A stretch of 64,000 nucleotides of DNA from Hymenobacter rubidus (GTDB lineage: Bacteria > Bacteroidota > Bacteroidia > Cytophagales > Hymenobacteraceae): NCBI RefSeq assembly GCF_016734815.1, contig NZ_JAERQF010000006.1, forward strand, positions 124,001-188,000, given 5' to 3'. The notes below the pieces were generated by a model, which saw only the letters and a list, made by a program, of their open reading frames with translations, did not search any database and was not told the origin of the DNA. The position numbers and the translations under genes were made by a program. Each line of letters starts with the position of its first letter. Position 1 is the stretch's first letter. Below are positions 21,096 through 49,778 of the stretch, in pieces.

Positions 21096-21131
21096 CAAAG
21101 GTTTGCCGCCCGCATACCCGAGAAAAAGGAC
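21096..21131 (-). promoter_or_regulatory. Phage-type promoter, variant spacing
   Basis: GTGTCCTTTTT upstream and AACCTTTG downstream on the minus strand, with 27 nt between GTCC and CTTTG instead of the 26 seen in the six other copies. It precedes the gene starting at 21059. Confidence 0.5.
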
Positions 21132-21138
21132 ACGAAAA

Positions 21139-21717
21139 CTACGCTGCCACGTACTTGGCCACGGTGCTCGGGGAGATGCTCAGCGTCCGGGCGATGCAGC
21201 CGTTGGACTTGCCCTCCCCTTTCAGGGCACGCGCCTGCTCTACCACTGCTGCGGATTTCGTCGGTGCACCAAGTTTGATGCCGGCAGCCTTCTTTCGGGT
21301 CAGGGCGGCCTTGGTATTCTCCGACACCTTGATGAGGTCCTGCTTGGCCAGCGTGGCCAGCATGGCAATGGCGACGTCGGCAAACGGCCCGAGCGTGTCG
21401 AGGTACGGCTCCATGAAGGACTTGTAGTTCACGCCATGGTCACTCAGCTCCTTCAGATATTTGAGCGTGGCCAGCGTGCCTTCGCGGCTGAAGCGGTCTA
21501 GGCGCCAGAACACGACCAGGTCGAATTTCTTCTGGTAGGCTTCGAGGAGCAGCAGCTTGAACTGCAGGCGGTCGGCCTTGCCGCCGGACACCTCCTCGGT
21601 GAACACTTTATAAATGGTGCCGTGCTTCTCAGCGAAGGTGCGCAGCTGGTGCAGCTGATTCTCGGGGTCTTGGCCTTTGTCGTTCGTCGACACGCGGGCA
21701 TAGATGGCGACTCTCAT
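21139..21717 (-). CDS. Small serine recombinase (resolvase/invertase family)
   Basis: 192 residues from MRVAIYARVSTND, with the catalytic Ser10 in that motif. Further family motifs are VFWRLDRFSREG and the GPFADVAIAMLATLAKQDL helix. The C-terminal 45 residues form a helix-turn-helix (CIARTLSISPSTVAKYVAA). It is a small resolvase/invertase, not a large serine integrase, so it may invert or resolve DNA rather than integrate the phage. I chose Met at 21717 because it starts the conserved beta strand. The AT-rich gene upstream is on the same strand. Confidence 0.92.
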   Translation of the reverse strand: MRVAIYARVSTNDKGQDPENQLHQLRTFAEKHGTIYKVFTEEVSGGKADRLQFKLLLLEAYQKKFDLVVFWRLDRFSREGTLATLKYLKELSDHGVNYKSFMEPYLDTLGPFADVAIAMLATLAKQDLIKVSENTKAALTRKKAAGIKLGAPTKSAAVVEQARALKGEGKSNGCIARTLSISPSTVAKYVAA

Positions 21718-21738
21718 TGTCAAACAGAACAAGCATAA

Positions 21739-22767
21739 TCAGATAAGACCAGTAAAAAGATTGAAAACAGTCGGTGTGTTCCAACTACGTGGGTCTCTAT
21801 ATCCCTGCGTATTTATCATGAATCCATCAAAATTCCAGTGGGACTTTAGTTGATTATAGAAGGCTATTGACATGCACCAAGTTTCTATTCTCCTCATTAA
21901 TACATCGCTAACGAATTTGTAAATGTCATCTGAATTTAAAGTTTCAAATAGATTAACTGGCACGCCTTCAATTTCAGTAACTCCAATTGGATAGCCAATT
22001 ACAAGATGCAAGGCTCCTTTGACAGGTATTAGTGCAAATGAAAACGCAATAGGAACTAACCCATCATCAAGAAACTGGTGGGTTTCTAGCATGGTTTTAA
22101 AAGCACTATCCTCAATACTATTTAATGTTACGAAAGACGAACTAGTAGAACAGGCCGCTATTTCAAAATACTTCGGAAGTACCCGATGTACAAATGAAAA
22201 CCCTTTAGGCTCATTAATATCATCACTAAAGACCTCTTTTTCCAACAAGTATGATACTTGTTTACTCCACCTACTGATTTCTGCATGACGAGTGAAATAT
22301 TGTTGGGCTAGCAACTTCACTTCAGAAGAGGTGCTATTGATATTCATTATTTTTAAATATGCCTCATCCCAAGCTTCTGCTTTGCGCTCTAAACACATAT
22401 GTGCTCGGTAAGCAAAGAGAAGATTATGCCTGTAATTGGAAAAGTCAGGTGTCTGATTCTCAATCTCACTGAATAAGCGAGCATCACAGTTGTTGTGTTT
22501 ATGTCCGCAGAAACCAATAAATCCTAAAACGTCGCTCGTCTTAACACTTTTGCGAACAATTTTACGTGGATGAAAGGGCATAGCGGGTACTCGCTCCATT
22601 ATCATTCCATCAGTAGAGATAGAATCCAATATGCCTCCTTTCTGCTGGAGTACATGGGAGTTAATCGCAGGCATGCCACAAGAAGGCGTGAGACATTCTC
22701 GTGGGTCATTTAGTGCTTTTTCTAATAGTTTAGAAAATCGTCTTTTGTCTTCCTTCGGTATAGCCAT
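21739..22767 (-). CDS. AT-rich zinc-finger/HNH-like protein of unknown function
   Basis: 342 residues, clearly more AT-rich than the phage around it. N-terminal region: CLTPSC (about 20-25), INSHVLQQKGGIL, then FIGFCGHKHNNCDARLFSEIE. This C-x4-C, SH-x-L, FCxxHD-like pattern resembles a family of bacterial proteins with an HNH-like zinc-binding start and a helical C-terminus; the family's role is not known to me. The rest is helical with no motif. The start is preceded by AGGAGAAA, an unusual Shine-Dalgarno-like sequence for this host. It lies 21 nt before the recombinase and looks horizontally acquired. Confidence 0.6.
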   Translation of the reverse strand: MAIPKEDKRRFSKLLEKALNDPRECLTPSCGMPAINSHVLQQKGGILDSISTDGMIMERVPAMPFHPRKIVRKSVKTSDVLGFIGFCGHKHNNCDARLFSEIENQTPDFSNYRHNLLFAYRAHMCLERKAEAWDEAYLKIMNINSTSSEVKLLAQQYFTRHAEISRWSKQVSYLLEKEVFSDDINEPKGFSFVHRVLPKYFEIAACSTSSSFVTLNSIEDSAFKTMLETHQFLDDGLVPIAFSFALIPVKGALHLVIGYPIGVTEIEGVPVNLFETLNSDDIYKFVSDVLMRRIETWCMSIAFYNQLKSHWNFDGFMINTQGYRDPRSWNTPTVFNLFTGLI

Positions 22768-22804
22768 CTTTTCTCCTGGTTAATTCTTATAAATATACGC
22801 TATG

Positions 22805-22890
22805 CCCTCCAATAAACGGACGTATTCTGGAGGGTTTCGCACAGTGCCCAAACGGCCCGGAAACGCAGGTTTTCCGGGCCGCTTTTTTAC
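22805..22890. terminator. Double hairpin at the end of the late region
   Basis: Two stems: CCCTCCA/TGGAGGG (22805-22834) and CGGCCCGGAAA/TTTCCGGGCCG (22853-22881) with a T-run on the plus side. It follows the tape measure gene on the minus strand; the T-run is weaker on that strand, so efficiency there is uncertain. Confidence 0.55.
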
Positions 22891-22911
22891 ACCGTTTTTT
22901 GGAGGGCTATT

Positions 22912-25797
22912 CTAGCGCCGAATACCATTCTCCAGCTGCACCTGCTTCCGCTCCGACTGGCCCGCCTCCAGCTCCGCCAGGTCGAGGTAAATTCCTAACC
23001 GGGACTGCCACTGCTTCACGTCCGCCAACTGCTGGGTCAGGGTCTGGAGCGCGGCCAGCATTTGTGTCTGCACGGCGTAAGTCAACTCGCCATCGGTCAC
23101 CGGGGCGGCGTTGGCCGCCGGCAGCGTGACGCCGCCAGTGGCCCCGCCCTCGGCGTAGCCGCGCAGGCGCTTGGCTTCCAGCCACTGCTCGACGGCCACC
23201 ACCTGCGGGTCCTGGCGCATCCACTTGGGCACCACGTACTCGTCCTCGTGCACGAGGCCGGCCACGGCAAAGCCCGAGCCGTCCTGCAGCTTGCCGTTGG
23301 GGCCCACGCTCATGCCCGCGTACTGGAGCAACTGGCCCATGGGCGAGACGGCCATGCCCTCGCCCCCGCTGGTGCGGCCGCCCTGGGCGAAGCTGAACTC
23401 CTGCAGTTTGTAGAGCCCATACGCCGTGCGGGCCACGGCCAGCGCGGTTTGCACCCCACCCAGCACGGCCCCAAATACGCCGGCGCTGGGCACGTTCTCG
23501 GGCTGCTCGGCCGAGTACTGCCAGATGGCGGCCACTTCCTGCACGCCATCGGCGATGATTTTGGCCCCGGCCAGCGCCGTGTACAGGTTGTGGTGCTTTT
23601 TGCGGGCCGCCTCGTCCTGGAAGAGCAGGTCGATGGTGGTTTGCAGCACGTCGCCGGCGGTTTTCAAGCCCTCTTTGGCCATTGCCTCCTTGGCCTTGTG
23701 GGCTTTTTTGGCATCGGCCAAGTTCTCGGCGTTGTGGTCCACCTCAGTTTTGAGCAGTTCACCATACGCTTTTTTGTACTGCTTGCTTTCTTTGCCGAAG
23801 CTGTCTTCAATCAGGGCCATCTCCCGTTCCAACGCCGCTTTCCGGGCCTCGTACTTGGCGTCGTCGAAGGCTTTTTGCGAAAGCAAGGCCGCATCAAACA
23901 TCACCTGAAACGCCGCCTGTTTGCGGGTTTCGTCGGCGTCAATTTCCTCCAGCTGCTGGTCGATGAATTCTTCCTGCTGCTTGCGCTGGTCCTCGGCCGC
24001 TTTCTTGGCTGCGGCCAGGTCCTGCTCATCGTACTGCGCCTGCTTTTCCTGCTTTTTCTGCTGGGCTTCGGCATTTATCAACGCAATGGCTGCGGCCCGC
24101 TCCTGCTCCGAACCCTGCACGCTCAAGGTTTTGCGCAGGGCATCAAACTCAATGGCGCCTAATTCGCGCTCGCGCTGGCTGCCGCGGGCAATCAGGGCCG
24201 CTTCGGCCAGGTTGTAGAGCATCTCCTGGTGGTGGCGCTCGGCCTCTTCCTCTGCCTTGTGCTGCTTGGCCAGCGCCGCCTCGCGTGCCTTCCGTTCTTT
24301 TTCCGATTCGCCCGCCGGCGCCTCGCCGTTGCTGGCCGCCGTGCTGCCGTCGCTGGTTTCAGTGGTTTCGACGTTAACCGAGCGCGTGATTTTGTTATTC
24401 TTGTTGGCCTCATAGCCCTTCAGGAAGGCTTCAGCGGCCCGCTGCCCGCTGCTCAGGGCCACGTCGGCCGTGGCGCTGAGGGCCGATTTAAAGCCGGCCA
24501 CGATTTTATCCTTGTCGAGGGTAAAAATCCCCACGATGATGTCGCCCACCCCGCCCAGAATTTTCAGCGCGTCGTCTTTTATCGTGGTAAACAGGCTCAC
24601 GATGACGGCCCCCAGCCCGCCCAGAATGCCGCGCAGCAGTTCGCTTTTATTGTACCACTCAATAAAGTTGTCAATCACGCTGCGGCTCACCGCCAGCAGC
24701 AGGCGCAGGGGCATGAGCAGCACGGTGAGGGCCGTTTTCAATACCTCGACGACGATGGCCGCCGTGTCGGTCTTTTCGTTGAACAGACCCAAGCCCTCCA
24801 GCACGTCGCCGATTTCACGGTAGTAGGCCGCAAACTGGTCGACCAGTTCCGTGACCATGTCCACCAGGGGCTGGGCCTTGTCCAGCACGCGGCCGAGCCA
24901 CTGGCTCAGCCGGGTCAGGCCCTCGCTCACGAAGCCGCCCACCGTTTCCTTCATCTCGTTCCAGCGCATGCTGAGCGTGGCCATGCCGCCGCCGGCCTGG
25001 CGGGCGGCCTCGGCCGAGCCGCCGAATTCCTTGTTCAATTCGGCCAGAATCAGCTTCTGCGCGCCGGCCGTGTCGCCGGCTTTCTGCATGGCCTTTATCT
25101 GGTCCTTCTGCTGCTCGGTGAACGTCACGCCTACGCGGGTCAAGGCTTTGAGCCCATTGGTGGGGTCATTCAGCGCCTTGCCGACCTGAATCGACGCCCC
25201 TTTCAAATCCGCCGGCCCGTCACCGCCCATCTTGGTGGCCAGGTCCTGAATGGCCGGAATAGCGTCTTCAAACACCCCCTTCTTGATGTTGGTGAAGGTG
25301 AGCAGCATCGCGCTGGCGCGGTTGGTTTCGTCGTCGTCGAAGAGCGTGACCTTGGCCCGCTCCGTGCCGATTTTCTGAATTTCCTGGGCCGTAAGCCCCG
25401 CCGCGTGGGCCGTGCTTTTCAGGGTCGCCTCCAGGTCGGCCCCGGATTTAGCGCTTTGCAGGAACTCCTCCCGGGAACTGAAAAGGAAGCCGAAGATTTG
25501 CTGCACCACGCCAATAATCCCGCCGCCGGTGAACAGGGCAAACGCATTGGCGAACGCCTGCTTCATCACGCCGGCCGACTGGCTCACGCCGCCTACTTCC
25601 GATTTAACCTCGGCCACCTTCGCCTTCATGGCGTTCAGGTCGGCAATGAGTTTGGCCCGGCCCGGGTCGTCCTGGCTCATCTTGCGCCACTGCGCGTTGA
25701 GCACGGCCACGGCCGCGTCCATCTCTTTAATCGAGGCGTTGGCTTTCTGGCCGTTGACAATGATTTCAACGACGCGTTCTTCTTTCGGCTGTCCCAT
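22912..25797 (-). CDS. Phage tail tape measure protein
   Basis: 961 residues, the longest phage protein. N-terminal coiled coil (EIIVNGQKANASIKEMDAAV), a central part with hydrophobic segments (ALTVLLMPLRLLLA, GAVIVSLFTTI), then long Lys/Glu/Ala-rich coiled coils (about 490-720) and a Gly-rich C-terminal region. This layout, together with the tail genes upstream, is typical of tape measure proteins, which set tail length. At about 0.15 nm per residue the tail would be near 140 nm. It has its own promoter and is the last gene of the late region. Confidence 0.9.
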   Translation of the reverse strand: MGQPKEERVVEIIVNGQKANASIKEMDAAVAVLNAQWRKMSQDDPGRAKLIADLNAMKAKVAEVKSEVGGVSQSAGVMKQAFANAFALFTGGGIIGVVQQIFGFLFSSREEFLQSAKSGADLEATLKSTAHAAGLTAQEIQKIGTERAKVTLFDDDETNRASAMLLTFTNIKKGVFEDAIPAIQDLATKMGGDGPADLKGASIQVGKALNDPTNGLKALTRVGVTFTEQQKDQIKAMQKAGDTAGAQKLILAELNKEFGGSAEAARQAGGGMATLSMRWNEMKETVGGFVSEGLTRLSQWLGRVLDKAQPLVDMVTELVDQFAAYYREIGDVLEGLGLFNEKTDTAAIVVEVLKTALTVLLMPLRLLLAVSRSVIDNFIEWYNKSELLRGILGGLGAVIVSLFTTIKDDALKILGGVGDIIVGIFTLDKDKIVAGFKSALSATADVALSSGQRAAEAFLKGYEANKNNKITRSVNVETTETSDGSTAASNGEAPAGESEKERKAREAALAKQHKAEEEAERHHQEMLYNLAEAALIARGSQRERELGAIEFDALRKTLSVQGSEQERAAAIALINAEAQQKKQEKQAQYDEQDLAAAKKAAEDQRKQQEEFIDQQLEEIDADETRKQAAFQVMFDAALLSQKAFDDAKYEARKAALEREMALIEDSFGKESKQYKKAYGELLKTEVDHNAENLADAKKAHKAKEAMAKEGLKTAGDVLQTTIDLLFQDEAARKKHHNLYTALAGAKIIADGVQEVAAIWQYSAEQPENVPSAGVFGAVLGGVQTALAVARTAYGLYKLQEFSFAQGGRTSGGEGMAVSPMGQLLQYAGMSVGPNGKLQDGSGFAVAGLVHEDEYVVPKWMRQDPQVVAVEQWLEAKRLRGYAEGGATGGVTLPAANAAPVTDGELTYAVQTQMLAALQTLTQQLADVKQWQSRLGIYLDLAELEAGQSERKQVQLENGIRR

Positions 25798-25823: not shown

Positions 25824-25858
25824 CAAAGCTGCACGCGCGGGCAACGGGAGAAAAGGAC
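25824..25858 (-). promoter_or_regulatory. Phage late promoter (tape measure unit)
   Basis: On the minus strand GTCCTTTT, then 19 nt, then CAGCTTTG. Exactly 26 nt separate GTCC from CTTTG. Starts about 27 nt before the tape measure ATG. Confidence 0.7.
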
Positions 25859-30444: not shown

Positions 30445-31275
30445 TTAGTGAGGGGCGTTTTCGCGGGCCTGACGGGCCAGCTCTTTGGCGCGGTGGGCAT
30501 CGTCCTGCATTTTGGCCAGCACCAGGCGGATGGGCTGCTGGGCGGTTTCCTTCAGCGTACCGAAGGCCTGGCCGCTGAGCTCGCGCAGCACCTGGCCCCA
30601 ACTGGTAGTGCCCGGGGCGGAAACATCTGCTTGCTGCGAGGGCTCAAACACCAGCGGGAAGTCCGTCTCCAACTGCTCCCGGCAGCCCCGGTACCAGGTG
30701 AGCACGGCCAGCTTCTGTTCGGGGGGCAAGTGGGTGAGCCGCTCGGCCCGGCGGCGCACCAGGTACTCGTTGAAGTCCTGCCGGCGGTCGCCGCCGTAGG
30801 TCGCGGCGTGGGGCCGGTAGGGCCGGCGCTGCGGCCGGTAGAGCGTGGCCACCAGCAGGTCGAGAAACGCCGGCTGCTGGCCCGTCACGTAGGCCAGGAA
30901 GTAAGCATCGGCGAAGATGAACTCGCCAAAGCTGACGTTGCGCAGGCTTTCGCGGGGCCCCCACCAGCGCCGGCGGCGCCAGTCGCGGCGCCAGGGCAGC
31001 CGCACCCAGGGCAGCAGCTGCGTGGTCAGGCCCACCGACGCCAGCACGAAATCCGTGAGCCACTTGATTTGGCAGAGTTGCACGGCCGTGAAGCGCAGCA
31101 CCACGGTGGCCAGCGGCACCTGCAGCAGCACCGCCAGCAAGCGGATGCGCAGCTGCCGCTCGTCTGGATTGGGGCTGTAGAGCACGCCCAGCACCCGCAG
31201 CAACAGCGGCCGGGTCAACTCATTCCAGGTGGAGGCCACCAGGCGAAGGCGGCCATTAATTGTTACTTCTTCCAA
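30445..31275 (-). CDS. Phage protein, possible tail assembly factor
   Basis: 276 residues, helical, with a very Arg/Trp-rich patch (WRRDWRRRRWW near residue 95). First gene of the tail unit: its ATG lies about 23 nt after the promoter box. Positions before the tape measure are often taken by tail assembly chaperones, but no frameshift signal was found. No motif recognised. Confidence 0.5.
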   Translation of the reverse strand: MEEVTINGRLRLVASTWNELTRPLLLRVLGVLYSPNPDERQLRIRLLAVLLQVPLATVVLRFTAVQLCQIKWLTDFVLASVGLTTQLLPWVRLPWRRDWRRRRWWGPRESLRNVSFGEFIFADAYFLAYVTGQQPAFLDLLVATLYRPQRRPYRPHAATYGGDRRQDFNEYLVRRRAERLTHLPPEQKLAVLTWYRGCREQLETDFPLVFEPSQQADVSAPGTTSWGQVLRELSGQAFGTLKETAQQPIRLVLAKMQDDAHRAKELARQARENAPH

Positions 31276-31297: not shown

Positions 31298-31332
31298 CAA
31301 AGCTCCGGCCATGGCCCAACCCAAAAAAGGAC
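31298..31332 (-). promoter_or_regulatory. Phage late promoter (tail unit)
   Basis: GTGTCCTTTTTT then GAGCTTTG on the minus strand, GTCC to CTTTG exactly 26 nt. The T-run of the upstream terminator ends 4 nt before. Confidence 0.7.
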
Positions 31333-36438: not shown

Positions 36439-36633
36439 TCAGTTGTGCCCGAGGCTAAAGCCGACCATAGCGGCCAGCGCGATGAGAAAAATGGCCAAGC
36501 AGAGCAGGGCCACGAGCACGAAGGCGAGGGCGCCAGCGGGGCCGCTGCCGCCGTCCTGGCGGCTTATGACGAACAGCAGCACCAGAGCCAGTACCAGCAG
36601 CAGCCACCAGTGCGAGAAATGCAGCGTTATCAT
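36439..36633 (-). CDS. Small two-helix phage membrane protein
   Basis: 64 residues from MITLHFSHWW, with two membrane segments. The start overlaps the portal stop as ATGA. The frame is open further upstream but overlaps the portal. Holin-like in size and shape, though placed away from the endolysin. Confidence 0.5.
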   Translation of the reverse strand: MITLHFSHWWLLLVLALVLLFVISRQDGGSGPAGALAFVLVALLCLAIFLIALAAMVGFSLGHN

Positions 36634-38006
36634 TTCGTTTCCTGCTGGGCGTTCAGGGTGGCGCTCATGCTCATGGCCTTGGGAATCTGAAAGCGCCACT
36701 TCAGACGCGGGTCCCAGCCGTTGTAGGCCGCAATCAATTCCAGCGGCTCCAGCACCAGGCTCTGGTGAAAAGTCACCGTGCTGATGAGGTTGTTGAACAT
36801 CACCCGGGGCTCCGAGCCGCCGCCGGCCCCGCCGCCCATGCCCTTGCCGGGCGAAACGCCCATCAGGGCCGGGGCCACGCCCACGGCCGTGTACACGTGC
36901 GAAGCCGCCTCGGCCGAGTCCTCGATGTAGAGGCCGTCCTTGAGCTTGTCGTCGATGGCCGCCACCTTAAACGCCTCGATGTCCTCCCCTTTCGCGTTGC
37001 GAATGGTGGTCGTCATCAGCGTTTTGCCGGCCCCGTTGGTGCCGGCCAGCACGTCGTTGAAGGCCTTCAGCTCCGCCTCAATCAGGCCGCGCCGCTCGTC
37101 GAGGGTTTTGCCCTCCCAGTCGCCGTACTTCCAGTCCCAGTACAGGTGGTGAATCGTCACCATGTACTTGATGGAGAGCTGGTTTTTAAACAGCATCTTT
37201 TTGAACTCCGGGATGGCCGCCATCACGTCCAGCCACCCGCTGCGCCGCACCGAGTTCCAGCTGGCCAGCTGGTAGAAGGCCTTGTCGGGGCTCGGCACGC
37301 TCAGCGGGTAGATGTACTTGAACGAATCAGTGCGGGCCTGCAAATTCCCGACCGCGTCGTAGTACGGGTCGATGATGGGCACCTTCGTGGTGTACTCATC
37401 GTCCGGATGCCCGCCGTAATCCCAGTTCGCGTTGATGTACACGAGCTGAAACTTGCCCTGCTGGGGCTTCTGGTAGCGGCACCAGATGGCTTCCTGGGCC
37501 GAAATGCCCACGATTTTCTTCCGGTCCTTGCTCAGAATCAGTTCCGGGAAAGCGTTGCCGAACACGTTGATGTCGTGCAGGGCCTCGAATCCGTACCGAT
37601 TCAGGCGCGTGCGCCGGATAAACTCGTCGATTTCGGGCACCGATTGGCGCTTGAACACCTCGTTTCCGTCCGCATCGAAGCCCTCCACGATGCCGTAGAC
37701 GATGCCTTCGCCGTACATGATGGCCGTTTTGCGCTCCAGCACGCTGGGCAGAATGGTGTTTTTCTCCATGTCGGCCAGCACCTGCTGCGGAAACAGGTTG
37801 TCGTCGCCCCACGGCGCCATGTCGCCGAAGGCAAAGCCCAGGTACCGCTTCTGCGGGTCCGTGGGCTCGATGTCCTGGCCTTTCGCCTTCTTGGCCTGGG
37901 GCGCGCCGCTGCCGGCGCCCATGGGCCCGGCGTTGAGCCGAAACACTGCGCCGCTCCCTTCCGCGAAGGCCATGGTGGCCTCCGGGTTCACTACAATTCG
38001 AGTCAT
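36630..38006 (-). CDS. Phage portal protein
   Basis: 458 residues. Long alpha/beta sequence with PWGDDNLFPQQVLADMEKN, HDINVFGNAFPELI, and the SPDKAFYQLASWNSVRRSGWLDV region, followed by a C-terminal helical part. Matches the portal family of Bacteroidota phages. The portal forms the ring through which DNA enters and leaves the capsid. Downstream of terminase, as expected, though separated by a terminator and promoter. Confidence 0.85.
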   Translation of the reverse strand: MTRIVVNPEATMAFAEGSGAVFRLNAGPMGAGSGAPQAKKAKGQDIEPTDPQKRYLGFAFGDMAPWGDDNLFPQQVLADMEKNTILPSVLERKTAIMYGEGIVYGIVEGFDADGNEVFKRQSVPEIDEFIRRTRLNRYGFEALHDINVFGNAFPELILSKDRKKIVGISAQEAIWCRYQKPQQGKFQLVYINANWDYGGHPDDEYTTKVPIIDPYYDAVGNLQARTDSFKYIYPLSVPSPDKAFYQLASWNSVRRSGWLDVMAAIPEFKKMLFKNQLSIKYMVTIHHLYWDWKYGDWEGKTLDERRGLIEAELKAFNDVLAGTNGAGKTLMTTTIRNAKGEDIEAFKVAAIDDKLKDGLYIEDSAEAASHVYTAVGVAPALMGVSPGKGMGGGAGGGSEPRVMFNNLISTVTFHQSLVLEPLELIAAYNGWDPRLKWRFQIPKAMSMSATLNAQQETK

Positions 38007-38021: not shown

Positions 38022-38345
38022 TTAGCCCAACACGATTTTCTTCCCATTCAGGGCCAGCAGCAGCCAGATGTGCACCTTGCGCCGCTGCGTCCCGTTTCCC
38101 ACCACCACATTCCGTGTCCCGTTGGCGTAGTGCGCCGGCATGCCTGAGGCAGTCGAAGCATCTTTAGCTCCCTCACTCGCTCTTCCTTCCCTCCGCTGCC
38201 GGCCGGATAAGCGGCACCCCGTCCACTCGCGCACCTGGCCGCCGGTTTTCCGTTTCCGGTCCACCGTCACAAAGCGCAGCGTGAACGGCTCCTGTGCCGT
38301 CTCCATCATTTCCAGTGCTTCCACCAACCGCATCGTCCCTTCCAT
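38022..38345 (-). CDS. Small phage protein preceding portal
   Basis: 107 residues from the ATG at 38345 (MEGTMRLVEALEMME); an alternative start at 38333 leaves a more usual leader. Basic C-terminus with a GKKIVLG end. First gene after the promoter at 38354-38388 and 15 nt before the portal start. Unknown function. Confidence 0.5.
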   Translation of the reverse strand: MEGTMRLVEALEMMETAQEPFTLRFVTVDRKRKTGGQVREWTGCRLSGRQRREGRASEGAKDASTASGMPAHYANGTRNVVVGNGTQRRKVHIWLLLALNGKKIVLG

Positions 38346-38353
38346 CACGGTGG

Positions 38354-38388
38354 CAAAACTCCCGCACCGCACCAGCGAAAAAAAGGAC
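38354..38388 (-). promoter_or_regulatory. Phage late promoter (portal-lysis unit)
   Basis: GTCCTTTT then GAGTTTTG on the minus strand, GTCC to TTTTG exactly 26 nt. Confidence 0.7.
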
Positions 38389-38680
38389 AGCAAACCAAGC
38401 AGCGGGCGACTGCAAAAACGCCAATCTCACTGCCAACCGCCCGCACGGGCCATTCAAGGCCCTTTTTTGCCGTTTTGAGAATTATATTTTCTCATTTTGT
38501 CTTTGGGCACCCCAACGCGCACTGTCGGCCGGATGGCAATTGCCAGGCCCAAAAAAAAGGATATATGCCAGGTAGGGCACGAAAAAGGCCCCTGCCGATG
38601 CGGTAGGGGCCTTTGAGTGTTTGGATTCTGTTTTTATCGGCAATTGCCGCCTTGGTACCGAATGGGCTGGAGGTTGGTAC
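38389..38680. other. Intergenic region between large terminase and portal unit
   Basis: No gene. It holds a dyad TGAGAA-N7-TTCTCA (38476-38494), a plus-strand TGTCTTTG box with TTG 20 nt upstream (about 38475-38505), two copies of the palindrome GGCAATTGCC (about 38534 and 38640), and a terminator at 38582-38614. A packaging or regulatory function is possible. Confidence 0.4.
38582..38614 (-). terminator. Terminator after large terminase
   Basis: Stem GGCCCCT/AGGGGCC with CGATGCGG-type loop; on the minus strand followed by TTTTTCGTG. Confidence 0.75.
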
Positions 38681-40378
38681 CTATGCACTCACGAGCAGCA
38701 GCCCGCCGCCCTGGCCAGTACTGCGGGCCACGTGCTTGTCAATGCTGAGGAAGTGCAGGTCGATGATGTCGGTGAAGTGAGTGGCCTCCTGGCCAGGCAG
38801 CGTGAGCTTGCGTTCGCTGCTTTTATCCTTCTGGATTTCGCCGCGCGTGCCCTGCTTCACTGGAGCTAGGCTCATGGCCGTGAGCGGGTCTTTGCAGTTC
38901 ACTTTGTTGAAGCGGATGCGCAGCTGCCGCTCATCGGTCTCGCCCAGCAGCTCGTAAGCCAGGCGGTACCGCTCCCCGTAGTCGGGCACGCGGCCCTGGT
39001 CGAACACCCGCACCCGCCAGCCTGCCGCCTTCAGCCGCTCGGCGAACTGCTGGTTGTAAGTCAGGCTGCTATCCGGGCGGCGCGCATTGCCCCACTCGTT
39101 GTCCTGAATGAACTCGAACACTTTCACCAGGTGGTGCTGGTAGTAGCGAATGAAGAGGTCCGCCAGGTCATCGATGAGTTTGGGGTGCTTGACGTATAGG
39201 CCCTTCAGGAAGCGGTACTCGCGCACGTCAGCGTGGATTTGGGCCAGGGTGAGCGTGCTGATTTTGCTGCCCCAGTCCACGGCGCCCCGGATGGGTTGGT
39301 GGCTGCGGCAATCACCGTCCATCCGGCTGTCGTGGGCCCCCAGCTTGCGCAGGTTGAACTCCAGGCCGGCCACGTAGTCGTTGTTGGGGCACTCCTGGGC
39401 GTGGTGGGCCACGTCGAGCTTGGGATAGAAACCCGCCTCTACGGTCGCCGGCCGCTTGTTCAGGATTTCAATCATGAACACGAAATCCGACAGCTCCCGG
39501 CGCTGGTCTTCCAGGTAGCCGATGCCCACGTTTTGCAGGTTATCGAAAATGTTGGCCTCCGAATAGAGCAGGCCCTTGGGAATACTCAGATGGCCCTTGC
39601 CGATGCGCTTGGGATTCGGGTAAAACCGCAACTGGCTGCTCAACTGGCGGATTTCGGCGTATAAGTCGAGGCGTTTTTTTTGGCTGCGCGTGTCCACGAA
39701 TTGGAGCTGCAGCGCAATCATCGCATCGCGGATTTTCTGAAAATCGTAGCCGTCCTCGGCGTAGTAGGCCGCATCGTCGAGCAGCCACTTGCCCGTGTCG
39801 CCCCAGGGCATCGACGAAAACAGAAACTTGCCGTGGTGCAGCGTGGCTTTGGGCCAGTAATCGACGTTGCCCCGGTTCGAGGCAATGACGTCGGTACCGA
39901 GCTTTTCGCGGTTGAGCAGCAGCGCCTCGTCGGCGATGTAGCCGTCGAGGTTCATGCCGCGCGAGCTGCCCCCGCCCCCGTCTTGCGTAATTAAGTGAAA
40001 ACCGGCTCCGGTGTAGAAAATGATGAAGTTGTCGTACTTCACCGGGCGCTGAAACGGCTCGGGCCACCCCCAGGAGGGCGGTGGCTTGCGGCCGATGAAG
40101 TAGTGCACGTCCTTGTAGTAGCCGATGCGCTCGAGGCTCGCAATCGTCGAGGGCAGCGTGCGGGTCAGAATCTGCTGATACGTCGAACCTACAATGCCCC
40201 AGCAGCTGCGGGGCATTTCGGTCACGATGCGGTGAATCAGCCAGGCAATCTTGCTCGACTTGCCCGTAGCGCGGCTCCAGACCGAATTGGCACTGGAGGG
40301 TGTCGTCATGACGAAGCGCAGCTGCGGCCGGTTGAACTGCAGCGGCTTTAAATCAACATTAACGGGGCTCGTCTCCAT
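38681..40378 (-). CDS. Phage terminase large subunit
   Basis: 565 residues. N-terminal ATPase: variant Walker A SRATGKSS (35-42), Walker B-like DGYIADEALLL. C-terminal nuclease half: VDWGSKIS, giving the first metal-binding Asp of the RNase H-like fold. The motor packages DNA through the portal. Follows the small subunit with a 20-nt overlap. Complete. Confidence 0.88.
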   Translation of the reverse strand: METSPVNVDLKPLQFNRPQLRFVMTTPSSANSVWSRATGKSSKIAWLIHRIVTEMPRSCWGIVGSTYQQILTRTLPSTIASLERIGYYKDVHYFIGRKPPPSWGWPEPFQRPVKYDNFIIFYTGAGFHLITQDGGGGSSRGMNLDGYIADEALLLNREKLGTDVIASNRGNVDYWPKATLHHGKFLFSSMPWGDTGKWLLDDAAYYAEDGYDFQKIRDAMIALQLQFVDTRSQKKRLDLYAEIRQLSSQLRFYPNPKRIGKGHLSIPKGLLYSEANIFDNLQNVGIGYLEDQRRELSDFVFMIEILNKRPATVEAGFYPKLDVAHHAQECPNNDYVAGLEFNLRKLGAHDSRMDGDCRSHQPIRGAVDWGSKISTLTLAQIHADVREYRFLKGLYVKHPKLIDDLADLFIRYYQHHLVKVFEFIQDNEWGNARRPDSSLTYNQQFAERLKAAGWRVRVFDQGRVPDYGERYRLAYELLGETDERQLRIRFNKVNCKDPLTAMSLAPVKQGTRGEIQKDKSSERKLTLPGQEATHFTDIIDLHFLSIDKHVARSTGQGGGLLLVSA

Positions 40379-41039: not shown

Positions 41040-42297
41040 CGCTCAGTTCCTCCCCGTTTCTCGACACCGTAAAGCGCCGGTTGTTGTCGCGCATGAACTT
41101 CACCCAGCGCCGCACGTGCACGTCGACGTAACGCGGGTCGAGCTCCGCTACGCGGGCCTGGCGGCCGGTGATTTCGCAGGTCACCAGCAGCGAGCCGGAG
41201 CCGCCAAAGCCATCGAAGCAGATGGCACCCGGCTTGCTGGAGCAATTCACCAGGTACTCCAGGATGTCCAGCGGCTTCATCGTCGGGTGCTCCGCGTTGC
41301 GCTGCGGGCGGTCGAAGTTGAGCACCGTCGTCTGCTTGCGGTCGGAGCACCACGTGTGCGCCGCCCCTTCCTTCCAGCCGTAGAGAATCGGCTCGTGCTG
41401 CCAGTGAAAATCCTGCCGGCCCATCACGAAGGCCTGCTTTACCCAGATTAAGCACTGACTTAATTTCAGCCCGGCATCCTTGAAGGCCTGGCGGAAGTTG
41501 GCGCCTTCCGAATCCGCGTGAAACACGTAAATGGGCGCGCCCGGGCGCATGTAAGCGTAGCAGTTGGTGTAGAAGTCGCGCAGAAACTGGTAGAAGTCAT
41601 TGTCGGCCATGTCATCGTTTTCGATGCGCAGCGCGTCCTTCGTTTTGCCCTCGTAGGCCACGTTGTAAGGCGGGTCGGTGTTCACCAGGTCGGCCAGCAC
41701 GCCGGCGCCCAAGGCCGTTTCCACCACCAGCGAATCAATCGACGAGCCGCACACCAGGCGGTGCACCAGCGCCAGGCCTTCGCTCTCGAACTCGTACACG
41801 TCGCCGAGCACGCTGATGGGCTCCGCCGGCGGCGTGAGGTCTACTTCTGCCTCCTCGGCCGGCAGCGCCTGCAGGGCGGCCAGGTTGAAGGCGGCGATGC
41901 CATCCAGCAGGCTGGCATCGGCCAACGCTCCTAAATCAATATCCGCGAAGTTCTTTACCAGGCTCTCGTAGTCCCAGATGCCGGCGCCTACGTTGCTCGT
42001 TACGTTGTAGCGTTTGGCCTCCTGCTCGGTGAGCAGGCGGTTGGGCATCCGCACGTCGATGAGTTCGTCGCCGCGGCCCAAATCGAGCAGAATGCGCAGG
42101 CGCTGGTGGCCGGCCAGCACCACCTCGTCGGCGTTCACGGCCGGGATTTCGGCCAGGTCAAACTCCTCGATGCTGGCCAGCAAGCGCGCGTAGCCCTCAT
42201 CCTCCAAGATGCGCGGGTTAAACTCATAGGGCACCAGGTCGCGCACGCGGCGCTGGGCGGTGTGCCATTTCAACTTCACAATTCCTACTTCACTCAT
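41017..42297 (-). CDS. ParB-like domain fused to DNA methyltransferase
   Basis: 426 residues. ParB/Srx-like N-terminal domain (about 15-95, with LAGHQRLRIL), then a DNA methyltransferase of the N4/N6 amino type: DPPY (208-211) comes before FDGFGGSGSLL, so the order is that of beta-class enzymes. This fusion is common in phages. It may methylate phage DNA to evade restriction; the target sequence is unknown. Start overlaps the upstream stop as ATGA. Confidence 0.88.
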   Translation of the reverse strand: MSEVGIVKLKWHTAQRRVRDLVPYEFNPRILEDEGYARLLASIEEFDLAEIPAVNADEVVLAGHQRLRILLDLGRGDELIDVRMPNRLLTEQEAKRYNVTSNVGAGIWDYESLVKNFADIDLGALADASLLDGIAAFNLAALQALPAEEAEVDLTPPAEPISVLGDVYEFESEGLALVHRLVCGSSIDSLVVETALGAGVLADLVNTDPPYNVAYEGKTKDALRIENDDMADNDFYQFLRDFYTNCYAYMRPGAPIYVFHADSEGANFRQAFKDAGLKLSQCLIWVKQAFVMGRQDFHWQHEPILYGWKEGAAHTWCSDRKQTTVLNFDRPQRNAEHPTMKPLDILEYLVNCSSKPGAICFDGFGGSGSLLVTCEITGRQARVAELDPRYVDVHVRRWVKFMRDNNRRFTVSRNGEELSDGELSAY

Positions 42298-42959
42298 GGC
42301 TTCAGCTTGGTTTCTAGTACATGGATATCGGCCAGCGCCTGGGCCAAATCGGCGGCGCGGTCGGGGTTGCGTTTGAGTTTGGAGGCCTGCGGGCGCAGGT
42401 TGGCCAGCAGCCGGCGGATTTCGCCCGCATCGGCAATGGCCGCCAGGTCGGGCCGGGGCGTGGCCACCGGCGCCGACACCGCGCGGCCGCGCTCCTGGTC
42501 GTAGCTGGCGGCCAGCAGCTGGCTCAGGTCCAGGATGCGCAGGGCACTGGCGTGGCGCTCGGCATCGGTGGCCAGCAGCTCGAGGCGGGCGTGCAGGAAG
42601 TCGCGCTCGGCAAACCAGGCGCTGCGCTGCTTGCGCGTATCAGTGGCCACCGAGCTATCTACATTATGGGACGAGCTATCCACATTTTGCAACGATTTCG
42701 TTGCGTTTTGTTTTACCAGGACATTTACTGTGTCATTTACTCTGACATTTGTGGTGACACCTGAAGGGACATTTGTGGTGACATCACCGGCAATTGCCAG
42801 CTTCTCCAACTCCCGCCTGAGCGTGGCGCGCGTAAAATCGGTAGCCCCGTACTGCAGGCTACGCAGCAGCACCCGGCTCTTGCCGTGGGCCGCGTACAGG
42901 GCCACGCCCTGGGCATAGTCCTGCCCGCCATTTGCCAACCACTCCCGTATCTCCTTCAC
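42294..42959 (-). CDS. Phage protein, unknown
   Basis: 221 residues from the GTG at 42959. It starts VKEIREWLANGGQDYAQGVALYAAHG and ends with an Arg/Lys-rich helix. A Val/Thr/Asn-rich low-complexity stretch lies in the middle. The GTG start lies 5 nt after the promoter box, so the message may be leaderless. Position before the methyltransferase and terminase genes suggests a DNA-packaging or replication accessory. Confidence 0.55.
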   Translation of the reverse strand: MKEIREWLANGGQDYAQGVALYAAHGKSRVLLRSLQYGATDFTRATLRRELEKLAIAGDVTTNVPSGVTTNVRVNDTVNVLVKQNATKSLQNVDSSSHNVDSSVATDTRKQRSAWFAERDFLHARLELLATDAERHASALRILDLSQLLAASYDQERGRAVSAPVATPRPDLAAIADAGEIRRLLANLRPQASKLKRNPDRAADLAQALADIHVLETKLKP

Positions 42960-42963
42960 GTTG

Positions 42964-42998
42964 CAAACTTTGCGCGTATCTTTCCTAGCGAAAAGGAC
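42964..42998 (-). promoter_or_regulatory. Phage late promoter (terminase unit)
   Basis: GTCCTTTT then AAAGTTTG on the minus strand, GTCC to GTTTG exactly 26 nt; immediately after a terminator T-run. Confidence 0.7.
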
Positions 42999-42999
42999 A

Positions 43000-43031
43000 A
43001 AAAAAAGCGCCCCGGCCAATGGCCGAGGCGC
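43000..43031 (-). terminator. Terminator fused to the terminase promoter
   Basis: Stem GCGCC/GGCGC with GGCCATTGGCC core, followed on the minus strand by TTTTTTTT and GTCC. A second inverted repeat (43034-43044 with 43074-43084, AAAAAGGGTGC) lies just upstream and overlaps the end of the preceding gene. Confidence 0.7.
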
Positions 43032-45535: not shown

Positions 45536-46015
45536 TTAGCCCTTGAGGCGGCCGGCGAAGAGCGGGTTGTTGTCGAGCGCCTGGTTGTGGGGCAGCTCGT
45601 CGATGGCCTTCTGGGCCTCGCTGGCGGCCGTGCCTTCCTGCACGTCGTTGGCTTCTTTGGGGGGCGTGGTGCCCAGCGCGCCGGCCTGGCTGCCGAAGGC
45701 TTCGGCCTTGGCCTTCCACTCGTCGCGGCTGGCCACCAGGGCGGCCACGTCGGTGGCGCCGGCGGCGGTGAGGGCGCCTTTCACGGCCAATAGCGAGGAC
45801 TCGGCCGTGTCTTTGGCCGTGGTGAGGGTGGCCACTGAGGCAGCCGCCGTCTCCAGCTGCTCGTGCGCGGCCGCCGTGATGAGGGCAGCACCCGTAATGC
45901 CCAGCTCTTTGAGCTCGGCGTTGGCGGCATCGGCTTGCTCGGCCGACACGGTTTCGGCGCCCATGAGCGCCAGCATGGCGGCCCCAAGGCTCACCTTTTT
46001 ATCAAAAAGTCCCAT
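45536..46015 (-). CDS. Possible nested scaffold protein inside the protease gene
   Basis: 159 residues if translation starts at the internal ATG (MGLFDKKVSLGAAML), in the protease frame. The start MGLFDKK is preceded by a Ser/Thr-rich linker, and everything after it is helical. Internal starts for scaffolds inside protease genes are known in lambda-like phages. The evidence is only the composition change and the Met. Confidence 0.4.
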   Translation of the reverse strand: MGLFDKKVSLGAAMLALMGAETVSAEQADAANAELKELGITGAALITAAAHEQLETAAASVATLTTAKDTAESSLLAVKGALTAAGATDVAALVASRDEWKAKAEAFGSQAGALGTTPPKEANDVQEGTAASEAQKAIDELPHNQALDNNPLFAGRLKG

Positions 46016-46984
46016 CTTACTTGCGTTGGTTGAGGAGGTGGCGGAGGAAGTGCGCTGCTCCTGCACCAGCTGCGCGCACAGCGCGAAAGCATCCTGCAGG
46101 GAACCCATGCCGTCGATGAGGCCCAGCTCCTGGGCCTCGGCGGCGTGAAAGGTGGCGCCGGCCAGCGCGCCGGCTTTTTTGGCGGCCTTCTGGTCGAGCC
46201 GGTCGCCGCGGTTGGCGCTCACGGCGCCGATAAACTGGTCGCAGATGGCCGAGAGGCGCTCCTGCATGGGGCCGTAGTTGCCGGCCTTGGCGGCCGCGAA
46301 ATCGGCGTTTTTCTGCGTCGACTGCGAGGCGTACACCTCGTGAAACACCACGCCGTCTTTCTCCAGCTTGCCCTGCTTGTCGGCCCAGCTGGCCATCACG
46401 CCAATTGAGCCAATCACGCACGTTTCGTGCGTGGCTAGGATGGCGTTGGCGGAAGAGGCAATCCAGTACGCCGCCGAGCACATCAGCCCGTCGTCGCAGA
46501 GGGCCACCACCGGCTTGCCGCAGTTTTTGATGGCATCGGCCAGGCTCTGCGTGCCATACACCTGCCCGCCGGGCGAGTCAATTTTGAGCACCAGCGCGTC
46601 GATGTCCGGGTTTTGGCCAGCCGACTGGATGTAGCGGGCGAAGGTGCTCATGCCCAGCGGGCCGCATTCCTGGTCGTCCTTCATCAACGGGCCGCTTAAG
46701 CTCACCACGCGCACCTGGCAGCGGTCGGCGCTGGCCTGGGCCTTGGTGGCCCCGCCTTGGCCGGCGGCGTATACCGGCACCGCAGTGCTGGCGCCGTGGG
46801 CGTTTACCACCATGACGTAGTCCTGGGGCTGCATTTCCGCCCGCAGCTCCGCCAGGTTCCGGCCCGCCCGCATATCGGGCATGTGGCCCTCCTGCAAGCC
46901 GAGCAGCACCGGCAGGTACGATTGGGCCACCGCCGGGCTAATCAGCCAGGGCGAGTCAAGAATTCGGGCGAGTAACGGATGCAT
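45536..46984 (-). CDS. S49-type prohead protease with scaffold-like C-terminus
   Basis: 482 residues. The central part is a ClpP/SppA-like peptidase: VRVVSLSGPLM, LKIDSPGGQV, then LMCSAAYWIASSAN with the probable nucleophile Ser170, and VIGSIGVM. The last 160 residues are an Ala-rich helical region that begins with an internal Met (46015) and ends LDNNPLFAGRLKG. A protease with a C-terminal scaffold is the lambda C/Nu3 plan: the protease trims scaffold during capsid maturation. Confidence 0.85.
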   Translation of the reverse strand: MHPLLARILDSPWLISPAVAQSYLPVLLGLQEGHMPDMRAGRNLAELRAEMQPQDYVMVVNAHGASTAVPVYAAGQGGATKAQASADRCQVRVVSLSGPLMKDDQECGPLGMSTFARYIQSAGQNPDIDALVLKIDSPGGQVYGTQSLADAIKNCGKPVVALCDDGLMCSAAYWIASSANAILATHETCVIGSIGVMASWADKQGKLEKDGVVFHEVYASQSTQKNADFAAAKAGNYGPMQERLSAICDQFIGAVSANRGDRLDQKAAKKAGALAGATFHAAEAQELGLIDGMGSLQDAFALCAQLVQEQRTSSATSSTNASKMGLFDKKVSLGAAMLALMGAETVSAEQADAANAELKELGITGAALITAAAHEQLETAAASVATLTTAKDTAESSLLAVKGALTAAGATDVAALVASRDEWKAKAEAFGSQAGALGTTPPKEANDVQEGTAASEAQKAIDELPHNQALDNNPLFAGRLKG

Positions 46985-47004: not shown

Positions 47005-47039
47005 CAAAGCTGCCGGCGCCCGGAACCCCTAAAAAGGAC
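47005..47039 (-). promoter_or_regulatory. Phage late promoter (protease-capsid unit)
   Basis: GTGTCCTTTTT then CAGCTTTG on the minus strand, exactly 26 nt between GTCC and CTTTG. Confidence 0.75.
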
Positions 47040-47042
47040 ACG

Positions 47043-47073
47043 AAAAAGCCCCGCCGGATGGGGCGGGGCTTTT
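47043..47073 (-). terminator. Terminator fused to the protease-capsid promoter
   Basis: Stem GCCCCGCC/GGCGGGGC followed on the minus strand by TTTTTCGTGTCC. The T-run runs straight into the promoter element. Confidence 0.8.
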
Positions 47074-47075
47074 GT

Positions 47076-47177: not shown

Positions 47178-47691
47178 CACGGTAGGGTTGGCTATCGCCG
47201 TGGGTGATGGCTGGGCCGTTGGCCGGGTCGCCGTAAATGAAATAGGGGGCCTCGTTGGCTGCCATCATGGCGGCTTCCACCGGGCCGACCATGTCCTGCG
47301 GGCCGGCGTTCATCTGCGCCTCGTAGGCATCGCCCCGGCGCAGCAGCGGGCGGGGGTCGTCGACGATTTTCGCTCGCCACTCGGCATCGGTTTCCTGCTG
47401 GCGCTCAAACACGATTTCCCCGCCCGGCAAGGCAATCACCTCGTGGTTAGTGGCCTTGTAGGTCCGCATCCGGCGCGGGCACAAAATGGGGGCTTCCTCG
47501 CCTGGTGTGCCATCGGGCAAGGTGTGGTGGTGCGTGATGAGCACCGTGATGAGCACGGCCAGCTCCAGCCGGTCGGGGTGCTGCAAGACGTTGACGCCGA
47601 TGCGGCGGGTGCGGCGCTGAAACACGACGCCGTCCCATAAGAGGGAATTCACCCAAACATCGAGGGCGGTGTGCTGGTGGGGGTATTCCAT
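47161..47691 (-). CDS. Phage protein, unknown
   Basis: 176 residues, begins MEYPHQHTALDVWVNSLLWDG, with acidic and proline-rich parts. Follows the carbohydrate-binding-like protein. Might be a tail fibre accessory. No family recognised. Confidence 0.5.
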   Translation of the reverse strand: MEYPHQHTALDVWVNSLLWDGVVFQRRTRRIGVNVLQHPDRLELAVLITVLITHHHTLPDGTPGEEAPILCPRRMRTYKATNHEVIALPGGEIVFERQQETDAEWRAKIVDDPRPLLRRGDAYEAQMNAGPQDMVGPVEAAMMAANEAPYFIYGDPANGPAITHGDSQPYRDGFPA

Positions 47692-47709
47692 GGGGTTACG
47701 CTGGGAAGA

Positions 47710-48234
47710 TTAGCTAATGAGAAAGGGCAGTGAGGTGTATTGGGTCCACGCATTGGGACCGGATTCGCGGTGCACTTCGACCCCGTCGATAAAAAACGCA
47801 ATCTGCAAACCGGCGCCGCCGTAGCGTTGGCGAATCCAAAAGCGGATTCGGTAATAAGTGCCGGAACTGAGCAAAATGGTTTGGCTGACGCCGGCGCCGG
47901 CCAATTGCAGCACCAGGCATTGATTCGGCTGCGGTATCGGGTAGGTGCCAAACGGTCCGAACTGGTCGTGGATGATGGCGTTTCCCACGCCGGTTGGGGT
48001 CCAGTTGCTTGTGGCCGGGTCGGCCAATGCCATGCCCCCCTGGCCTTGCACCGGGTATTCAAATCCGCTATTGGCAAGGATGCCGGGCATGACATTGCCG
48101 GCCACGTCCAATATTTCCAGCTGGTCCACAAAAATGCTGTGGTCGCCGGGGTATTCCTGGTTAATCAAGGCCAGCGTCACGGCTTTGGTCGGGCCTCCCA
48201 TCGAGCCGAAAAGAAGTAGGCGGCGGCGGCTCAT
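47710..48234 (-). CDS. Phage protein with carbohydrate-binding-like beta domain
   Basis: 174 residues from the ATG at 48234, overlapping the preceding stop as ATGA. NSGFEYPVQG, then SGTYYRIRFWIRQRYGGAGLQIAFFIDGVEV is the pattern of DUF642-like or CBM-type jelly-roll domains. Follows the fibre gene, so it may be a receptor- or glycan-binding tip. Confidence 0.5.
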   Translation of the reverse strand: MSRRRLLLFGSMGGPTKAVTLALINQEYPGDHSIFVDQLEILDVAGNVMPGILANSGFEYPVQGQGGMALADPATSNWTPTGVGNAIIHDQFGPFGTYPIPQPNQCLVLQLAGAGVSQTILLSSGTYYRIRFWIRQRYGGAGLQIAFFIDGVEVHRESGPNAWTQYTSLPFLIS

Positions 48235-49739
48235 GCGCGGGTTTTGATAAGGTATTGCACCTTGCTGGCGGCGGCCGTGGGGTGAATCCAAAAGACGTAC
48301 TCGTGTTTCTGGCCGGGGATGTAGGTGCCAGAGCCTTCAAAACTGTCATCCAGGGCAATGGGCGAACAACCGGCCCCTAACAGGGCGGTGACGATGGTGT
48401 GCATCTTAAGCACCGACTTGTCGAACGTGAACGTGCCGGTGGCCAGCTCCTGGTAATCGCGGTCCTGGTCGAACTGAATCACGGTGCCGGTGCCGATGGA
48501 AGAACCACCACTGGACGCGGCCACCACCACGTTGCCATCGGCGTCGGGCGCGGTGCCGTTGATGGTTTTGACCGTGCCCATTTTGCCGTACAGCTCGTTA
48601 ATGGCGGCCACCACGTTGTTCTTGGCCGTGGTGAGCAGCCCATTCACCGTGCCAAGGAAGCCGGCATTGGCGGCAATCTGCTGGGTGTGCTGCTGCTGGG
48701 TGGCCAGCATGGCGGCCGTGCCGGTTTCGTCGGCGGCCTGCTGCGCGGCAATCTCGGCCAGCGTATCCAGCGCCTCCGGCGCGCCGGCGACCAGGTTATT
48801 GAGCCGGTCGGTTTGGGCATCAATGGCCGCCTGCAGCTGCGAAACGGCCGAACTGCTGTCCCCGCCCAGCGGCACCCACACATCGGAGCTGCGGCCGGTC
48901 CACGCTAGGCAGATTTCAAACGCCGGCCGGCGCACGCCATCGGCGTCCTGGGCCCGAAACGACAGGGCCGCGGCCTGACGGTTCATCCCTTCGAATACCA
49001 GGCACGTCCGCACGGCGCCGGTGCCGCGCTCCTGGCTGCCCATCCGGATAATAAACTGCGGCTGGTACGTGCCCAGGTCGCTGTTCTGCTCGTGGTCGTG
49101 GGCCGAGGGGGCCGAAAAAATGCGGTAAATCGGGTCGCTATCGAGGCCAGTCGGTACCGGATGGCTGAAGCCCACGCTGTCGGCCTTCCACTGCACCAGG
49201 TCGGTGTGCCCGTCCGGAAAGGTGTAGCGCCGCACGTCGCCGGCGTCGTAGTCCACATCCTCCAGCACCAGCTCGTCGAAGGAGGCAATGCGCTCCAGGG
49301 CCGTGCCGCTGATTTGCGCCCACCTGGCCTTCACGGTGAGCGTGGTGGCGGGCTCGGCATCGAGCAGCGCGTCCACCGTGCCGTGCGAATCCCGAATCAG
49401 GGCGAAGAACACCGGCGGCTTGACCACGCCGGTGGCGCCGGTGGTCGAGTCCACGCCGTTGACGGCCTGGGCCTGGGCGCCGAGGATGCGGTAGTCCGGC
49501 GGCACCTGGCCCAGGTTGTCGGTGTAGGGCACCGGATACGTGCCGCCCTTGAGGCGCTTGGTGCTCAGGTGGCGCCAATCGGCAAACACCTGGGCCAGGC
49601 CGGCGAAGGTTTCGCGAAAATCCAGCTCGGTCGTATTGCCGAAGGTGTTATCAGCAAAGCGGGTGTTGACGTCGGCCAGCCAGGCCTCCACGGTGGGAGT
49701 AAGCGCGACCGGGGAGGGAACGGGAGAATTTGCTGCCAT
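48231..49739 (-). CDS. Phage tail fibre-like protein
   Basis: 502 residues from the ATG at 49739. The N-terminal 250 residues are beta-rich with no match; residues about 290-390 form a helical repeat with QLQAAIDAQTDRLNNL and NVVAAINELYGKM, followed by VNGTAPDADGNVVV-like beta strands (INGTAPDADGNVVVAA), a pattern widely found in fibres; the C-terminal domain is a beta fold. The start lies only 5 nt after the promoter box, so the mRNA may be nearly leaderless. Confidence 0.65.
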   Translation of the reverse strand: MAANSPVPSPVALTPTVEAWLADVNTRFADNTFGNTTELDFRETFAGLAQVFADWRHLSTKRLKGGTYPVPYTDNLGQVPPDYRILGAQAQAVNGVDSTTGATGVVKPPVFFALIRDSHGTVDALLDAEPATTLTVKARWAQISGTALERIASFDELVLEDVDYDAGDVRRYTFPDGHTDLVQWKADSVGFSHPVPTGLDSDPIYRIFSAPSAHDHEQNSDLGTYQPQFIIRMGSQERGTGAVRTCLVFEGMNRQAAALSFRAQDADGVRRPAFEICLAWTGRSSDVWVPLGGDSSSAVSQLQAAIDAQTDRLNNLVAGAPEALDTLAEIAAQQAADETGTAAMLATQQQHTQQIAANAGFLGTVNGLLTTAKNNVVAAINELYGKMGTVKTINGTAPDADGNVVVAASSGGSSIGTGTVIQFDQDRDYQELATGTFTFDKSVLKMHTIVTALLGAGCSPIALDDSFEGSGTYIPGQKHEYVFWIHPTAAASKVQYLIKTRA

Positions 49740-49743
49740 GGCG

Positions 49744-49778
49744 CAAAGGTGCCCGCCCACGAAGGCCCTGAAAAGGAC
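49744..49778 (-). promoter_or_regulatory. Phage late promoter (fibre unit)
   Basis: CGTCCTTTTC then CACCTTTG on the minus strand, GTCC to CTTTG exactly 26 nt. Confidence 0.7.

Follow-up and report, generated by a model that had tools for sequence, protein, structure and literature searches.

Recurring GTCC-box elements before the late genes of a Hymenobacter rubidus prophage: predicted activator-dependent late promoters with relatives across Bacteroidota phages

The prophage and its spaced element

The window analyzed here, a 64,000-nucleotide (nt) stretch of the Hymenobacter rubidus genome to which positions refer unless stated otherwise, contains a tailed-phage prophage on the minus strand, with genes for a tape measure, a head protease, and a terminase, together with a weakly portal-like gene. 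Further prophage genes encode a DNA methyltransferase, one part of which is ParB-like, as well as an amidoligase and a serine recombinase (21139-21732). In an element that recurs along this prophage, 19 bases separate an 8-base box starting with GTCC from an off-consensus -7 element that ends in TTTG; the same layout is found in phages of several Bacteroidota classes. The original prediction described six identically spaced minus-strand copies, each just before a gene, and all six proved to be exact matches to the pattern GTCCTTTT-N20-AnnTTTG (starting at 25824, 31298, 38354, 42964, 47005, and 49744).

Copy 1 (49744..49778) lies 5′ of a tail-fibre-like gene (48231-49760); an ATG follows its TTTG after 4 nt, and the mRNA is predicted to be leaderless. 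Copy 2 (47005..47039) comes directly after a terminator-like hairpin and 5′ of the head maturation protease gene (45536-46984, minus strand; PHROG phrog_53, 2.4e-55), a place that is also occupied in a second prophage. Copy 3 (42964..42998) stands before or at the start of 42294-43019, in a place conserved in relatives, and copy 4 (38354..38388) is at the 5′ end of an open reading frame (ORF; 38022-38393) upstream of the weakly portal-like gene (36630-38006); the terminase large subunit-like gene, recognized by tblastn to annotated terminases, is at 38681..40378 on the minus strand. Copy 5 (31298..31332), again after a terminator-like hairpin, is 5′ of 30445-31275, and copy 6 (25824..25858) is 5′ of the tape-measure gene (22912-25797). 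The seventh copy (21096..21131, minus strand) is one base longer, as had been noted, with TTTG at offset 32 of the box rather than 31; it lies 5′ of a small gene (20484-21098) adjoining the serine recombinase gene, and a regular-length copy occupies a like place in another stretch (L237).

With up to two mismatches allowed, the window yields 10 matches, where 100 shuffles gave an expectation of 1.24 and never more than 4, and the GTCCTT words of either strand that have TTTG at offset 31 are exactly the six sites. The entire 5.49-Mb genome holds 10 exact copies, namely the 6 in the window, 2 in the second prophage (C44), 1 in C11, and 1 in C38, and the reversed pattern, used as a control, matches once; such copies are rare genome-wide. 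The second prophage (G000:C44, ~200000-236000; L001, L005) is related but diverged and has its own regulator and boxes; one of its copies is 5′ of the head protease gene, as in the window, and the other is 5′ of a homolog of window gene 50529-51077. The C38 copy overlaps an ORF of 158 amino acids (aa).

Conservation and spread of the element

We compared 25 Hymenobacteraceae prophage stretches, of which 23 were fetched through homology to the protein of gene 50529-51077 (the candidate regulator considered below); the others are the window and C44, the latter found through the motif. The exact pattern occurs in these 76 times, in 22 of the 25 stretches and always on the late strand, with no match on the other strand and none for the reversed control. 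Even when the -7 half is not assumed, 94 of the 131 late-strand GTCCTTT words have TTTG at offset 31 (next best offset, 1), compared with 0 of 20 on the other strand. The late proteins are mostly only ~30 to 75% identical to those of the window, so descent alone is insufficient to explain exact DNA matches at 13 fixed positions.

The placement of the copies agrees with the late-gene role originally proposed: they precede the head protease gene, the tape-measure gene, and gene groups leading into the terminase and weakly portal-like genes. The first start codon of an ORF of ≥60 aa follows the TTTG after 4 nt at 28 of 79 late sites and after 19 to 23 nt at 27; at 4 of the 79 there is none within 120 nt. 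Because the start codon follows at exactly 4 nt in the first class, leaderless mRNAs are predicted there. A terminator-like hairpin has its T run at 37 of the 79 late sites, as might be expected if the repeats were terminators, sites of packaging or recombination, or another signal of the late strand, but the remaining 42 have no such hairpin by the same test, and both the downstream TTTG register and the start-codon spacing are promoter-like. We consider a nonpromoter signal very improbable and promoter function very likely.

The element is real and found across the phylum; comparable boxes occur in phages that infect Polaribacter, Cellulophaga, Flavobacterium, Porphyromonas, and Bacteroides. 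Eleven phage records were examined, 9 of them drawn from the 41 of a terminase search (about one per group, including Leef_1, and chosen by neither box nor regulator) and 2 added by regulator homology (BT-TP2 and phage019a). Late-strand GTCCTTT words in these records are in register in 29 of 42 cases, compared with 0 of 18 on the other strand and 1.8% at other offsets. Regulator homologs are present in 8 of the 9 terminase-chosen records, some of them weak at first (E values, from small ORF sets, of 0.003 for Ingeline and 2e-5 for phage030a); MT835559 is the exception.

The letters of the box vary between lineages. Polaribacter phage Leef_1 has six GTCCTTTT boxes on its late strand, 5′ of gp02, gp04, gp05, gp13, gp41, and gp46, and two GTCCTTT words on the other strand. 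Two of the nine terminase-chosen records carry another box, likewise repeated: in laban6-1 it is GTCACAA (6 on the late strand and 0 on the other, 5 with the -7 element in register, and ACAA at the -33 place), and in FPSV-F7 it is GTCTTAA (8 and 1, with the -7 element about one base short). Other Hymenobacteraceae have GTCCTTTC or GTCTTTT, the latter in G131, G028, and G067, and more distant genomes have GTCCTA (9 late strand and 0 other in G371; 5 and 0 in G517). The boxes of laban6-1, FPSV-F7, and these five genomes were spotted from upstream sequence or repeated words and counted afterwards. Across relatives the -33 place reads TTTC, TTTA, TTTG, or ACAA, and where the box differs, TTTG or TTCG is mostly kept at offset 31. 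The original prediction had taken TTTT for a substitute -33 element; because the -33 bases change along with the box while the downstream TTTG or TTCG is largely retained, TTTT probably belongs to an activator box instead, the upstream half of the element appearing to follow the phage lineage and the downstream half the host polymerase.

A profile search of the phylum added 3 further genomes among 395, although with ≤9 candidates scored for most of those listed, absence means little; one of the 3 (G324) is truncated by a contig end and shows no box. A pattern scan of IMG/VR returned at least 80 loci, 8 with a regulator match among those listed, but it is mixed with chance matches (extra GTCCTTT words, 71 forward and 37 reverse) and is not counted as evidence. 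Microcystis phage Mea-Yong924-1 (L084; MZ447863) has a Bacteroidota-type box, a regulator homolog, and a terminase, and a Bacteroidota bacterium in the culture may be the host that it really infects. Isolated copies were also considered as marks of phage satellites that use the promoter of a helper, an idea we rejected: in 5 of 8 fetched stretches the copy comes just after a homolog of the window's serine recombinase, L237 has a second copy after its recombinase, and 2 of the 8 have no homolog of window phage proteins. Prophage ends or remnants are likelier. Six stretches (L231, L232, L233, L234, L236, and L237) have a serine recombinase followed by a box and then, judged by eye, a small secreted-looking protein, an arrangement that is a recurring leftover of prophage ends.

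A candidate regulator and two kinds of -7 element

The early region likely extends from ~55.7 to 51.2 kb (including a gene for a MerR-like protein) and is followed by the candidate late-activator gene (50529..51077, minus strand; 182 aa) and then by the late block. Homologs of its product are present in 40 of 200 family genomes. The promoter of this gene, GTACTTTG-N19-TAAGTTTG (51107..51141, minus strand), is one of the 2-mismatch matches in the window; it is host-like and lacks GTCC. Another 2-mismatch match (50475-50509) overlaps an array (50464..50511, minus strand) in which TTTGTCC occurs three times at 21-bp intervals; the array lies downstream of the regulator gene and ahead of the first late gene.

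The -7 element separates the two kinds of promoter. Among 15 matches within 130 nt of a regulator gene start, the T of TAnnTTTG is present in 14, whereas the first -7 base of the 79 late sites is T once, C in 51, G in 23, and A in 4 (Fisher 1.3e-14), in agreement with the claim that the late -7 element keeps TTTG and lacks the first T. The commonest late form is S-A-G-Y-TTTG, and the -33 place reads TTTT at 74 of 79 late sites and TTTC at 5, so the late sites depart from both primary-sigma features, TAnnTTTG at -7 and TTTG at -33, while regulator-gene promoters have the former. In 217 host upstream regions TAnnTTTG is enriched (36 sense versus 15 antisense), but SAGYTTTG is not (4 versus 5); 34 host sites did not reveal a host -33 element. 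For Flavobacterium johnsoniae, G is reported to be virtually absent at the third -7 base (PMC6847099). These observations fit a design in which transcription of the regulator gene, but not of the late genes, can be started by the host sigma factor, which suggests that the late genes need the regulator.

The claim that the element is phage specific stood in one sense and not in another. A narrower pattern ending in AGNTTTG has 107 copies in 27 of the 40 genomes with the candidate regulator and 19 copies in 17 of the 160 genomes without it (both summed by hand), and the exact phage pattern is absent from the 217 host upstream regions (0 sense, 0 antisense), but the element does not belong to one phage. 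Because boxes are found in most of the Bacteroidota phages read, a host alternative sigma factor or host regulator that the phages exploit has to be weighed, and a stray exact copy (C11:116707-116741) lies in a 20-kb host stretch that has no homologs of window phage proteins. This copy precedes short ORFs of <100 aa and so falls outside the counted upstream regions, yet it amounts to one exact copy in 420 kb of sampled host DNA. The counts above speak against a host reader, as does the fact that the box letters differ between phages of related hosts, and we regard such a reader as improbable.

A phage-encoded or modified sigma factor that reads the box and -7 element together, as a full alternative promoter, would explain why both are conserved at fixed spacing and why GTCC lies outside the host consensus. 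However, no sigma-70 family Pfam match was found in the window regulator or nine relatives, in most phages read the TTTG half keeps its host-like form and the box changes, and 14 of the 15 regulator-gene promoters join the same box to a full host -7 element. We therefore think a dedicated sigma factor unlikely, and the suggestion that an activator rather than a plain sigma factor acts at GTCC gains indirect support.

Several lines of evidence make the protein encoded by 50529-51077 the predicted activator. Of 45 terminase matches (E < 1e-60, more than half the query), 39 have a regulator homolog ≤15 kb away on the same strand of the same contig (read by hand), and the other 6 are on contigs without one, in genomes that carry a homolog on another contig. 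The gene lies just 5′ of the late block in Hymenobacteraceae phages, Leef_1, Porphyromonas phages, and BT-TP2, where the homolog is labelled "transcriptional regulator" in GenBank without evidence given there. Its own promoter carries the box in 15 of the 25 stretches, and in 11 of 25 the gene is followed by, or ends in, TTGTC[CT] repeats spaced at exactly 21 bp (5 arrays noncoding and 6 inside its 3′ end); the coding arrays give the tail of the regulator a repeat of seven residues. In Leef_1, a 157-aa protein taken to be gp39 is related to the regulator in fold (Foldseek E value 5e-7; template modeling [TM] scores 0.68/0.78), and gp39, which is encoded two genes before the head protease, matches the regulator by BLASTP at 4e-8.

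For the window regulator itself, Pfam gives nothing above cut-off, and neither NCBIfam nor PHROG has a match; PHROG phrog_21888, whose function is unassigned, matches the homologs of FPSV-F7 and laban6-1. The structure model of the window regulator (predicted local distance difference test score [pLDDT] 85.8; predicted TM score [pTM] 0.73) has an N-terminal mixed part followed by predicted helices at 78-105, 110-120, and 130-147, and Arg139 is invariant in 53 aligned sequences. No confident match by fold was found in the PDB, the best profile match to solved structures had an E value of 0.4, and weak fold alignments of residues 90-156 were not used as evidence. LuxR-type regulators like those of Leef_1 and laban6-1 were rejected as a common reader, none being present among those early ORFs of the window that were scanned. 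On a regulator tree the box classes cluster, with 13 changes compared with a shuffled mean of 16.6 (as low in 0 of 200 shuffles); the classes are hand assignments (with G082 placed under TTTT, though TTTC is as common there), G065, G324, and G178 were left out as having no clear class, and long branches make the deep part unsure.

From this evidence, read from sequence throughout, we infer that the six repeats are probably activator-dependent late promoters of a tailed-phage prophage, whose box would be bound by the 50529-51077 protein as it recruits host RNA polymerase; the regulator family of this gene is the likely reader. Several findings weigh against this interpretation. MT835559 is a boxed phage with no detectable regulator homolog, the homolog in Mea-Yong924-1 is not placed just before the late block, and only 1 of the 6 Leef_1 boxes is in register with a -7 element. 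The regulator has no recognised DNA-binding domain (Pfam; window member and nine relatives), and the regulator and terminase trees each need 9 changes for the box classes, so we do not claim that co-variation singles out the regulator. Our confidence dropped by a small step because a more complete host control and the GTCTTTT strand counts each came out slightly less clean. Some of these points would suit a different phage protein as reader, with the 50529-51077 family as a mere conserved neighbor (e.g., a replication or assembly protein), but the position of the gene before the late block, its boxed promoter, and the adjoining arrays argue for the regulator itself, and we view another reader as rather unlikely.

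If the regulator acts as proposed, the host sigma factor would read its promoter after induction, where TAnnTTTG is kept, and the regulator would then bind GTCC boxes at the place of the sigma factor's -33 contact, opening late promoters whose S-A-G-Y-TTTG element is presumably too weak alone. Where its own promoter carries the box, it may boost its own gene as well.

Two further regions lie beyond the early genes. A divergent gene (55895-56395, plus strand) precedes the early region, with no family match above cut-off and a homolog at a like place in the second prophage; it is possibly the lysogeny repressor. Farther on, 57257-58414 encodes a member of the phosphorylase superfamily that matches a GTPase-associated adaptor domain below cut-off, and further genes continue to 63900; the region from 57257 to 63900 is possibly a defence-type island.

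Relation to known systems

The original prediction knew of no described phage promoter like this one, and our literature search, which left subscription journals mostly outside its scope, likewise found no late promoter of this kind; a term search of the main text of the Leef_1/Ingeline paper (PMC8776804) found no use of the word "promoter." If our interpretation is correct, one short pattern would locate late operons, along with a probable master regulator, in phages whose bacterial hosts live in soil, sea, mouth, and gut, and many unannotated prophage genes could be sorted into early and late. A direct test would be possible in tractable hosts, for example Bacteroides thetaiotaomicron with phage BT-TP2. 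The evidence leaves evenly balanced a broader idea, that one ancient late-transcription system is common to Bacteroidota temperate phages, in which a single regulator family would replace the upstream contact of the host sigma factor and the box would be rewritten per lineage (GTCCTTTT, GTCTTTT, GTCCTA, GTCACAA) with the geometry frozen. Were this so, phages across the phylum would supply a natural set of activator-promoter pairs, each distinct from the others.

Mu C and P2 Ogr are small phage activators made just before the late genes that switch on several late operons, and the candidate regulator, if it acts as predicted, would resemble them in size, timing, and the number of operons it serves. 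It differs from them in that the window regulator and nine relatives have no Pfam match to the Mu Mor/C or P2 Ogr families at E values up to 0.1, and in that one box-to--7 register extends over a far wider range of phages. The crAss-like phages carry an RNA polymerase of their own and stand apart. Phage T4 has middle promoters that work with MotA and AsiA (PMC6755090). In these an activator box occupies the upstream recognition region and a host-type downstream element is retained, and the predicted layout of the sites reported here would fit that scheme; the box and the host sigma factor differ, the element here would serve late genes, and no match of the window regulator to known structures was found. 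With Bacteroidota primary-sigma promoters (TTTG/TAnnTTTG; PMC6847099), the late sites have in common the TTTG of the -7 element and its spacing to an upstream element, and the regulator gene's own promoter is of this type. At the late sites the first T is missing, the third base is mostly G, and a GTCC box takes the place of TTTG at -33. The proposed system is of a known kind, the activator-dependent phage late promoter, with a new regulator family.

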